Of a stretch of 37,797 nucleotides of DNA, positions 19,491-20,969 are shown piece by piece. The notes under the pieces are model-generated. The model did not search any database and was not told where the DNA came from. It saw only the letters and a program-made list of their open reading frames with translations. The position numbers were made by a program, and so were the translations under genes. The DNA comes from Phycisphaerae bacterium (lineage in GTDB: Bacteria > Planctomycetota > Phycisphaerae > Phycisphaerales > SM1A02), in the NCBI GenBank assembly GCA_016873315.1, contig VGXL01000010.1, positions 1 to 37,797 on the forward strand. Direction: 5' to 3'. The stretch's first letter is position 1. Every line of letters begins with the position of its first letter.

Positions 19491-19530
19491 GTGTTGCGTG
19501 GTGGGGCAAAGTGTCGTACAGTGGGGCCTG
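19491..19530 (+). promoter_or_regulatory. Putative MraZ operator: four GTGnnG boxes at exact 10-bp spacing
   Basis: The 40 bases read as four consecutive ten-mers: GTGTTGCGTG, GTGGGGCAAA, GTGTCGTACA and GTGGGGCCTG. All begin GTG and have G at position 6. In E. coli, MraZ binds tandem GTGGG-type repeats separated by 5 nt (10-bp period) before its own gene. The match in sequence, period and position (ending 11 nt before the mraZ start) supports autoregulation. Confidence 0.75.
19494..19522 (+). promoter_or_regulatory. mraZ promoter embedded in the operator
   Basis: TTGCGT (19494-19499) and TACAGT (19517-19522) are separated by 17 nt. Transcription would start near 19529, just before the Shine-Dalgarno GAGGT (19530-19534). 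MraZ bound to the boxes would cover both promoter elements. Confidence 0.55.
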
Positions 19531-19541
19531 AGGTCACTTGA

Positions 19542-19958
19542 GTGCTTTTCACGTCCACCTACATCCACGGCCTCGACGCGAAGCGTCGACTGGCGATTCC
19601 CGCCCAGTGGCGGGCGCGCTTGGACCCGACGGTCCACGGCGCACGGATCATGGTGTCGCCGGGCTCCGGTGGCCGGTTGTGCTTGTGGACCGAAAAGGAG
19701 TTCGAAGTGCAGGCGCAACCGTTCCGGTCGGGGCTGGTGAACGACGCCCAGGCGGCCAAGCGGGCAGCGCTGCTCTTCAGCAACAGCGATGCGCTGGAAC
19801 TCGACACGGCTGGCCGCATTCGCATTCCGGATCGGCTCCTCGACCTCTTCAAGCTCGAAGAGAAGGTCGTCTTGCTTGGCGTCGGCAACCACATCGAACT
19901 CATCAGCGCGTCGCAGTACCGGGAACCGACGCTGGAGGACATCACGGGCATGCAGTGA
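19542..19958 (+). CDS. mraZ: Transcriptional regulator MraZ
   Basis: MraZ is a ring-forming DNA-binding protein with two SpoVT-AbrB-like domains that represses its own promoter, usually at the head of the division and cell-wall cluster. The 138-aa product shows both half-domains: GLDAKRRLAIPAQWR (10-24) and LDTAGRIRIPDRLLDLF (87-103), matching the family D-x-K/x-GR-x-x-iP pattern. The start is GTG with GAGGT 7 nt upstream. It is an orphan here: no rsmH, ftsL or ftsI follows. Downstream is the multi-hairpin GGA RNA, with no terminator between, so both may lie on one transcript. Confidence 0.93.
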   Translation: MLFTSTYIHGLDAKRRLAIPAQWRARLDPTVHGARIMVSPGSGGRLCLWTEKEFEVQAQPFRSGLVNDAQAAKRAALLFSNSDALELDTAGRIRIPDRLLDLFKLEEKVVLLGVGNHIELISASQYREPTLEDITGMQ

Positions 19959-19985
19959 CGCGGAGCGCGCTGCAGCTCGAACGAA

Positions 19986-20221
19986 TGCACCAGGACGGTG
20001 CACTGGGTGCAAGGAACGCACCCAATCGGGGCACAGGGAAGGTGCCCTGACACGCTGGAACCCGACTGCACGGACGCAGCCTGTTCCAGATTCAGATCGA
20101 GCCAAGGATGGCTCGGACCACGGCCAAGGACGGCAGTGGCGGCCTCAGGGATGAGGCAAGGTGGGCGCAGGCCCGTTTCCGTCGATGCCCCTGCACCTCA
20201 CAAGGGTGCAGGGGCATTTTT
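19986..20221 (+). ncRNA. Predicted CsrA-sequestering RNA (CsrB/RsmZ-like) with seven GGA-loop hairpins
   Basis: Seven hairpins follow one another. Stem ends and loop are: 19986-20002 (6 bp, AGGAC); 20004-20024 (7 bp, AAGGAAC); 20029-20047 (6 bp, AGGGAAG); 20055-20089 (outer 7 bp, inner 4 bp, ACGGAC); 20098-20115 (6 bp, AAGGAT); 20118-20139 (4+3 bp with one G-A mismatch, AAGGAC); 20142-20157 (5 bp, AGGGAT). Every loop contains GGA, in six cases as AnGGA. Stem sequences differ while the loops are kept, as expected from selection on structure. A GGA-free hairpin (20163-20174) and a perfect 12-bp terminator follow. CsrA dimers bind GGA in hairpin loops, and sponge RNAs of the CsrB/RsmZ class are built this way. 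csrA starts 171 bp downstream. No frame of the region encodes a plausible protein. The 5' end is unknown; a further GGA at 19962-19964 may belong to it. No good promoter is visible before it, so it may be the 3' UTR of mraZ. Confidence 0.85.
20185..20221 (+). terminator. Intrinsic terminator of the GGA-hairpin RNA
   Basis: ATGCCCCTGCAC pairs perfectly with GTGCAGGGGCAT (12 bp) around a 9-nt loop (20197-20205), and the stem runs into TTTTT (20217-20221). It is the strongest terminator in the window and separates the RNA (and mraZ) from csrA. Confidence 0.9.
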
Positions 20222-20313
20222 ATGGACTTCCAAGGATAACCCTCGGCCGGAACTCGACTTTTGTTCATCTTGTGGGCGGGGTTTCCCGAATGAGGGGGGT
20301 ACCCTGAAACGGT

Positions 20314-20345: not shown

Positions 20346-20385
20346 GTGCGAACGGATGCGCGCGGTGGCCAGTCTGGGCAGGAGG
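20346..20385 (+). promoter_or_regulatory. csrA leader: GGA-loop hairpin plus GGA-containing Shine-Dalgarno
   Basis: GTGCG pairs with CGCGC (5 bp, one G-U) around the loop AACGGATG (20351-20358), and the Shine-Dalgarno GGAGG at 20381-20385 also contains GGA. A CsrA dimer could bridge these two sites about 25 nt apart and block its own translation, as in other csrA leaders. The GGAGG lies 6 nt before the GTG at 20392 and decides that start. Confidence 0.5.
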
Positions 20386-20391
20386 TCCGCA

Positions 20392-20628
20392 GTGCTGGTC
20401 ATTACCCGTCACGTCGGCGAAGAAGTCATCATCGGAAATCCCGCAGCTCCGCTGGGGACGATCCGAATTGCCGCCATCAAGGGTGATCGCGTCCGCATCG
20501 CGTTTGACTTCCCTCGAGAGATGCCCGTCCACCGCAGTGAGGTGGCCAAAGAGATCCTCGAAGAGCAGCAGCAACGGCGAACTGACATCGCAGGCCGCAT
20601 CACCGAAGACGGCACAGCTGGCGCATGA
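20392..20628 (+). CDS. csrA: Carbon storage regulator CsrA
   Basis: CsrA is a small dimeric RNA-binding protein that blocks or promotes translation by binding GGA motifs near start sites. The 78-aa product starts VLVITRHVGEEVIIG, continues VRIAFDFPREMPVHRSEVAKEI, and keeps the RNA-binding pair: I4 (usually Leu) in the first strand and R48 (equivalent to E. coli R44) in PVHRSE. It is longer than the usual ~61-65 aa because of a polar tail (QQQRRTDIAGRITEDGTAGA). The start is GTG, with GGAGG 6 nt before it. Neighbours are the GGA-hairpin RNA upstream and a convergent NifU-like gene; fliW and flagellar genes are absent. Confidence 0.95.
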   Translation: MLVITRHVGEEVIIGNPAAPLGTIRIAAIKGDRVRIAFDFPREMPVHRSEVAKEILEEQQQRRTDIAGRITEDGTAGA

Positions 20629-20711
20629 CGCCTTGACCGGGCGGGCGTTCGACCTGCCGCGTGGTCACGCAGCGTGACGCAACGCCGTGCTCGGCCCTGA
20701 GGTCGAGCAGT

Positions 20712-20969
20712 TCAGTTCAACGATTCGACTGAGACGATCTCGGGGATCCGCTCCCGGAGCAGGCGTTCGATGCCACCCCGCAGGGTCATGGACTTGCTTG
20801 GGCAGGTGACGCATGCGCCGAGAAAGCGCAGCACGATGTTGCCGCCGTTGGTGCTGACCAACTCCACATCGCCACCATCGTCACGAATGCCGGGTCGAAC
20901 CAGGTCCAGCACAGCGCGCACCCGCTCGTCGAGCGGTTCGTGTGTCTGCGCGCCGTTGCCTGGGGCCAT
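20712..20969 (-). CDS. NifU-like C-terminal domain Fe-S scaffold protein
   Basis: The 85-aa product is a stand-alone NifU C-terminal (Nfu) domain. It has LDLVRPGIRDDGGDVELV, then ACVTCPSKSMTLRGGIERLL with the CxxC that binds a 4Fe-4S cluster between two subunits for delivery to target proteins. RimO and other Fe-S enzymes in the genome are possible clients. The start is the ATG at 20969, with TACACT 6 nt upstream and no Shine-Dalgarno. It converges on csrA, and the 83-bp gap holds a small hairpin GTCACG-CAG-CGTGAC (20664-20678) without a T-run. Confidence 0.9.
   Translation of the reverse strand: MAPGNGAQTHEPLDERVRAVLDLVRPGIRDDGGDVELVSTNGGNIVLRFLGACVTCPSKSMTLRGGIERLLRERIPEIVSVESLN

Follow-up and report, generated by a model that had tools for sequence, protein, structure and literature searches.

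FliW is a protein antagonist of CsrA, and the RNAs CsrB/CsrC and RsmX/RsmY/RsmZ titrate CsrA by means of a row of hairpins with GGA in their loops, followed by an intrinsic terminator. These RNAs are encoded by separate genes under the control of BarA-UvrY/GacA in Gammaproteobacteria, and titrating sRNAs of the CsrB/RsmY class are described as identified only in this group as of 2014, while the same source treats TwoAYGGAY (RF01731) and Bacillaceae-1 as predicted CsrA-binding RNAs with GGA hairpins from other phyla (PMC4333381). For Planctomycetes, among other groups, FliW has been put forward as a possible substitute (PMC4682653); as of 2020, it was described as undetermined whether FliW and sRNAs act together in any species (PMC7652899). 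The CsrA site itself has been described by the SELEX consensus RUACARGGAUGU and an ANGGAN loop (PMC7652899). RsmU of Xanthomonas, which binds RsmA/CsrA, originates from the 3' untranslated region (UTR) of the XC1332 mRNA, encoding a predicted ComEA; it is reported there as limited to Xanthomonas and as having four predicted GGA motifs, the change of which to AAU did not abolish binding (PMC7694677). The mraZ mRNA of Rhodobacter sphaeroides gives rise to an abundant RNA, UpsM, yet the untranslated region concerned is the 5' UTR, UpsM is associated with Hfq, and the term "CsrA" is absent from the main text of that report (PMC5089854).

Here, we describe a row of seven GGA-loop hairpins located 27 nt 3' of mraZ in a Phycisphaerae bacterium (assembly GCA_016873315.1, contig VGXL01000010.1), within a stretch of 37,797 nt that is referred to as the window; array, mraZ, terminator and csrA all lie on the + strand (Table 1). 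We consider it probable that the array is a CsrA-sequestering 3' UTR of the mraZ mRNA, and binding of CsrA by the array is very likely. The hairpin row with its intrinsic terminator resembles CsrB/CsrC and RsmX/RsmY/RsmZ, such that titration would be expected, but the array appears to be the tail of mraZ in Planctomycetota rather than a separate gene in Gammaproteobacteria. It shares with RsmU the putative origin from an mRNA 3' UTR, with UpsM the proposed origin from the mraZ mRNA, and with TwoAYGGAY and Bacillaceae-1 the occurrence of predicted GGA hairpins outside Gammaproteobacteria. What appears to be new is a conserved CsrA-type hairpin array outside Gammaproteobacteria, in a planctomycete family and tied to mraZ; in the titles and abstracts of the open-licence literature, we recognised neither a CsrA-binding RNA behind mraZ nor a CsrA sponge in Planctomycetota.

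Table 1. Features of the mraZ-csrA region (positions in the window).
Feature	Position	Strand	Description
Putative MraZ boxes	19492-19526	+	TGTTG, TGGGG, TGTCG, TGGGG; 10-bp period; read by eye
mraZ	19542-19958	+	PF02381, 65.3 bits
Hairpin 1	19986-20002	+	loop AGGAC; in minimum-energy structure; GGA invariant in 8 genus sequences; fails strict rule
Hairpin 2	20004-20024	+	loop AAGGAAC; in minimum-energy structure; passes strict rule
Hairpin 3	20026-20050	+	loop AGGGAAG; in minimum-energy structure; passes strict rule
Hairpin 4	20066-20079	+	loop ACGGAC; sits on longer outer stem; passes strict rule
Hairpin 5	20097-20116	+	loop AGGA, A-U closing pair; passes strict rule
Hairpin 6	20123-20134	+	loop AAGGAC; fails strict rule
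Hairpin 7	20142-20157	+	loop GGGA, A-U closing pair; passes strict rule
Intrinsic terminator	20184-20221	+	15-pair hairpin 20184-20218, T-run ending at 20221
Putative autoregulatory CsrA site	20375-20389	+	small hairpin, csrA Shine-Dalgarno AGGAG in loop
csrA	20392-20628	+	GTG start; PF02599, 52.6 bits (cut-off 27); presumed ligand

All seven hairpins are present in the minimum-energy structure, where they span positions 19986-20157, and the fold of 19960-20250 has a z-score of -6.1, with none of 200 dinucleotide shuffles being as stable. The seven GGA-loop hairpins of the original prediction are thus real, its unrelated stems do differ in sequence from hairpin to hairpin, and the neighbours that it named mraZ and csrA match the corresponding profiles. 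The stems had also been called well paired, but the stem of hairpin 6 has only 3 bp in the window versus 4 bp in seven aligned congeners; the predicted terminator with its T-run was recovered, but with 15 pairs instead of a 12-bp stem. One extra hairpin, which lacks GGA, is found at 20163-20174 between hairpin 7 and the terminator.

Hairpins were counted as strict if the loop, including the closing pair, reads A-N-GGA-[ACT], with a loop of 3-8 nt and a stem of at least 4 bp that contains at least three G-C pairs, and five of the seven window hairpins pass this rule. The gap between mraZ and csrA in the window holds six strict hairpins, one of which (20346-20363) lies past the terminator and before csrA, as gap counts include everything from mraZ to csrA. 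The array is the sole site with at least three strict hairpins starting within 300 nt in 437,797 bases scanned on both strands (the window and 20 further stretches, about 18% of the genome). At gathering thresholds, the only Rfam match in the window is a tRNA elsewhere, none falls on the array, and no CsrB, CsrC, RsmY or RsmZ family was found at the loci of 16 chosen relatives. The array matches listed at gathering, or with E values up to 10, do not include TwoAYGGAY or Bacillaceae-1, and the best match of a relaxed search was PrrB_RsmZ with 13.4 bits (E = 1; gathering 44). Membership in a known Rfam family was therefore rejected, so that the array has the hairpin-row anatomy of the predicted CsrB/CsrC/RsmY/RsmZ architecture but is no member of those Rfam families.

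Conservation was assessed at the csrA loci of relatives, which were fetched and oriented; 71 of 111 hold both mraZ and csrA, yielding 59 distinct mraZ-csrA gaps from the window's family after gaps identical to another and L074, with its unusual mraZ/csrA order, had been left out. By a loose definition, 296 hairpins with GGA in the loop were counted in these gaps, whereas shuffled sequences gave 74.3 (maximum 98); when the 64 triplets are ranked by loop fraction, GGA comes first. Strict hairpins number 208, whereas shuffles contain 5.4 (maximum 10) and the opposite strand 2; at least two are present in 53 of the 59 gaps, at least three in 43 and fewer than two in six. If the window's genus is counted once, 160 strict hairpins remain in 52 gaps (4.7 in shuffles), while 860 background tiles of the same loci hold a mean of 0.073 and never more than two. 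The number and spacing of the hairpins differ from genus to genus.

Both the loop rule and the rule for MraZ boxes (discussed below) had been framed after some of the sequences were seen, hence the strict rule was applied unchanged to new genomes. This hold-out comprised 82 regions from 84 new genomes with an mraZ match, as G393, with 44 nt 3' of mraZ on its contig, and G387 (L314), with 169 nt, were too short to be counted; the latter nevertheless carries three strict hairpins. In total, 247 strict hairpins were found against about 5.6 in shuffles and one on the opposite strand, and at least two are present in 75 of the 82 regions, at least three in 55 and fewer than two in seven. When 18 regions near-identical to the first set are removed, 61 of 64 have at least two. 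The first batch of 63 regions, which are the better MraZ matches, contributed 197 strict hairpins (shuffles 4.5, opposite strand 0; 61 regions with at least two), and the second batch of 19 regions contributed 50, compared with 1.1 in shuffles and one on the opposite strand, and 14 of its regions have at least two. A natural loss of the array is possible in genus g44, where mraZ is divergent and each of three new genomes (L315-L317; G342, G354, G322), near-identical to the first-set member L028 (G051), has one strict hairpin.

Outside the family, the signal declines. In 34 regions 3' of mraZ from five other families of the window's order, 55 strict hairpins were counted against about 2.9 expected and one on the reverse strand, but unevenly, with at least two in 13 regions and none in nine. 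Samples from the class and the phylum consist of the best-scoring MraZ matches and are not random: 30 class regions hold 26 strict hairpins (2.3 in shuffles, 2 on the reverse strand), of which 21 are found in the 27 regions outside the window's order and five in the three regions within it, and 29 other regions of the phylum hold eight (2.3 in shuffles), all in four genomes of family f42. These counts show a strong array signal for the window's family, a patchy one for the order and a weak one for the rest of the class. The f42 genomes, which lie outside the class (L185, L196, L208, L210), each carry two A-N-GGA hairpins behind mraZ, and the association with mraZ may accordingly be older than the class.

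The loops share more than the GGA triplet. A logo of 299 loop GGAs reads C (.74), A (.73), N, GGA, T (.44) or C (.29), G (.75) and is absent from 474 other GGAs; the resulting consensus, CANGGAYG, closely resembles the CsrA site from the literature, so that one transcript could hold several CsrA dimers. In 164 hairpin comparisons from 25 overlapping pairs of the genus, not one of the 492 loop GGA bases has changed, whereas the base before GGA is the same in 99 of 164 and identity is 0.90 over all aligned bases and 0.95 over stem bases. The same holds for 21 wider pairs, with 152 of 159 GGA bases kept, the base before GGA in 21 of 53, all aligned bases at 0.69 and stem bases at 0.76, and this pattern indicates that selection acts on the loops. 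Among stem pairs of the wider comparisons, 43 were changed on both sides and still paired, 23 were changed on one side, 45 were broken and 4 gapped, compared with 7, 16, 31 and 2 when partners were shifted by one. The original prediction had looked to close relatives for covarying stems with kept GGA loops. There the GGAs are kept, but covariation is thin: 99.1% of cells in the genus stems are paired, only one of 57 pairs changed on both sides (in hairpin 5, A-U in four and G-C in four genus sequences), and the covariation term is -0.09 kcal/mol.

We assign the array to mraZ and not to csrA because it stays with mraZ where csrA is convergent or lies elsewhere. Where a family gap holds two or more strict hairpins (53 gaps), csrA is on the same strand in 22 and convergent in 31; some family members have the csrA-nfu pair (20392-20969 in the window) in the reverse orientation with respect to mraZ. 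In the five other families of the order, mraZ is apart from the best csrA match in 33 of 34 genomes examined (the place of csrA is not listed for G084), and G041 and G038 of the window's own family, in which mraZ is also away from csrA, have two and three strict hairpins behind mraZ (L132, L133). Conversely, none of the csrA flanks of L079 and L083 reaches two, and across 37 csrA loci that lack a neighbouring mraZ, 11 strict hairpins were counted, or 2, 2, 5 and 2 per combination of side and strand, with only L081 reaching two on one side and strand. These 37 seemingly include one genome twice (L062 and L101) and leave out L009 and L038, with csrA at the contig edge, as well as L029 and L074. 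L081 (G036) has six loose hairpins, two of them strict, upstream of csrA on the opposite strand and near the contig end. High numbers of strict hairpins behind mraZ without csrA beside it were seen in L116 (G065), L141 (G092) and L146 (G098), with eight, five and four, respectively. A loss of mraZ in G029 was considered and rejected, as a divergent mraZ-like ORF can be read in L029, with four strict hairpins behind it. A sponge array "upstream of csrA" had been predicted; the array of CsrA-type sites is retained, but its placement is defined by the tail of mraZ, and the array most likely resides on the mraZ transcript. In dcw clusters, mraZ usually lies beside rsmH. In the window's genome rsmH is on another contig (C77), and in the single-contig G017 it is about 536 kb from mraZ, which places mraZ outside the customary dcw context in both genomes.

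In the proposed mechanism, transcription would start from the mraZ promoter with its MraZ-box-like repeats, and MraZ would autoregulate the mRNA that bears the array. RNA polymerase would read mraZ and then the hairpin row, and would stop at the terminator. The loops would present CANGGAYG to CsrA, and the sponge would be either the full transcript or a piece cleaved from its 3' end, by which CsrA would be held away from its mRNA targets, the leader of csrA itself probably among them. Titration and the control by MraZ are what we infer from these elements, and titration may be too weak in the cell. If the proposal is true, one RNA would wire the global post-transcriptional regulator CsrA to a transcription factor of cell division, and division control would be linked to CsrA. 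Of the 53 gaps that hold two or more strict hairpins, 37 contain a terminator-like hairpin (1.55 expected) and the other 16 none by this rule. MraZ boxes have been described upstream of the dcw cluster in E. coli, as have direct repeats with the sequence AAAGTG[T/G] in Mollicutes (PMC8475190). In the family, 34 of 59 regions have at least three consecutive TG-rich repeats of 10-bp period upstream of mraZ, versus 0.37 expected from shuffles; under this rule, which the window's TGTCG fails, the window and six of seven aligned congeners score only two.

The main rival of a sequestering 3' UTR is a role in cis, in which CsrA would bind the mraZ 3' UTR and stabilise, destabilise or process the mraZ mRNA, with little CsrA removed. 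The array is fixed to mraZ and not to csrA, as this account would have it, and the direction of control is indistinguishable by comparison alone; however, one or two sites would serve such a role, yet at least three strict hairpins are present in 43 of 59 gaps and in 55 of 82 hold-out regions, and we regard a purely cis-acting array as unlikely. The leaders of mraZ provide a weak further argument against it, which concerns translation only: GGA occurs near the start in 24 of 47 placeable leaders but in a hairpin loop in none, with about three expected (null 0.113). The compact unit with its own terminator could also be a separate sRNA gene, transcribed from a dedicated promoter within the last part of mraZ as a stand-alone sponge like CsrB. 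Against such a gene, which we think rather improbable, stand the short and variable distance of only 3-165 nt from the mraZ stop to the first GGA-loop hairpin in the family gaps and the last two 30-nt bins of mraZ, which are conserved at 0.93 and 0.97 in the genus and so fall within the 0.90-0.98 seen over the rest of the gene.

Recognition of the GGAs by a protein other than CsrA, or the spread of a repeat element, deserves consideration since CsrA binding is predicted from sequence here, but is very improbable in view of stem sequences that differ between hairpins, the lack of a second cluster in the 437,797 bases scanned, loops that match the published CsrA site and a strand bias of 208 to 2. 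That csrA lies downstream on the same strand in the window would suit a csrA leader or attenuator, but there the terminator separates array and csrA, and as a general account a leader is refuted by convergent csrA and by arrays that persist without csrA nearby, which leaves it scarcely credible. The nearly bare csrA loci without mraZ likewise led us to reject the array as a feature of csrA. A CsrA-sequestering 3' UTR on an mRNA under MraZ autoregulation is the simplest reading.

The presumed ligand is a regular member of its family by sequence: the window's CsrA aligns with the solved CsrA 1y00, with L4 replaced by I and the VHR arginine kept, which corresponds to the conserved RNA-binding R44 of E. 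coli CsrA. Among 86 distinct csrA leaders that contain GGA, 59 place the Shine-Dalgarno GGA in the loop of a small G+C-rich hairpin immediately ahead of the start codon (null 0.113), as expected for CsrA autorepression; the corresponding hairpin of the window was read from the sequence, as the G-U limit of the scanner excludes it. FliW was found in 81 of 101 relatives and in 41 of 61 genomes of the window's family, and many relatives have a second, divergent csrA match close to fliW. With FliW and a second csrA copy being common in the family, sponge RNA and FliW would share cells, and we tentatively suggest, with somewhat less than even confidence, that MraZ autocontrol and a CsrA-sponge tail are combined on one RNA, while sponge and FliW coexist on different CsrA paralogues. 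The array makes the questions of the range of such sRNAs and of FliW acting alongside sRNAs directly testable. In the window's genus (G000-G008), FliW was found in none of nine genomes, its loss, perhaps together with motility, being a guess, and each of the nine has a single csrA match.
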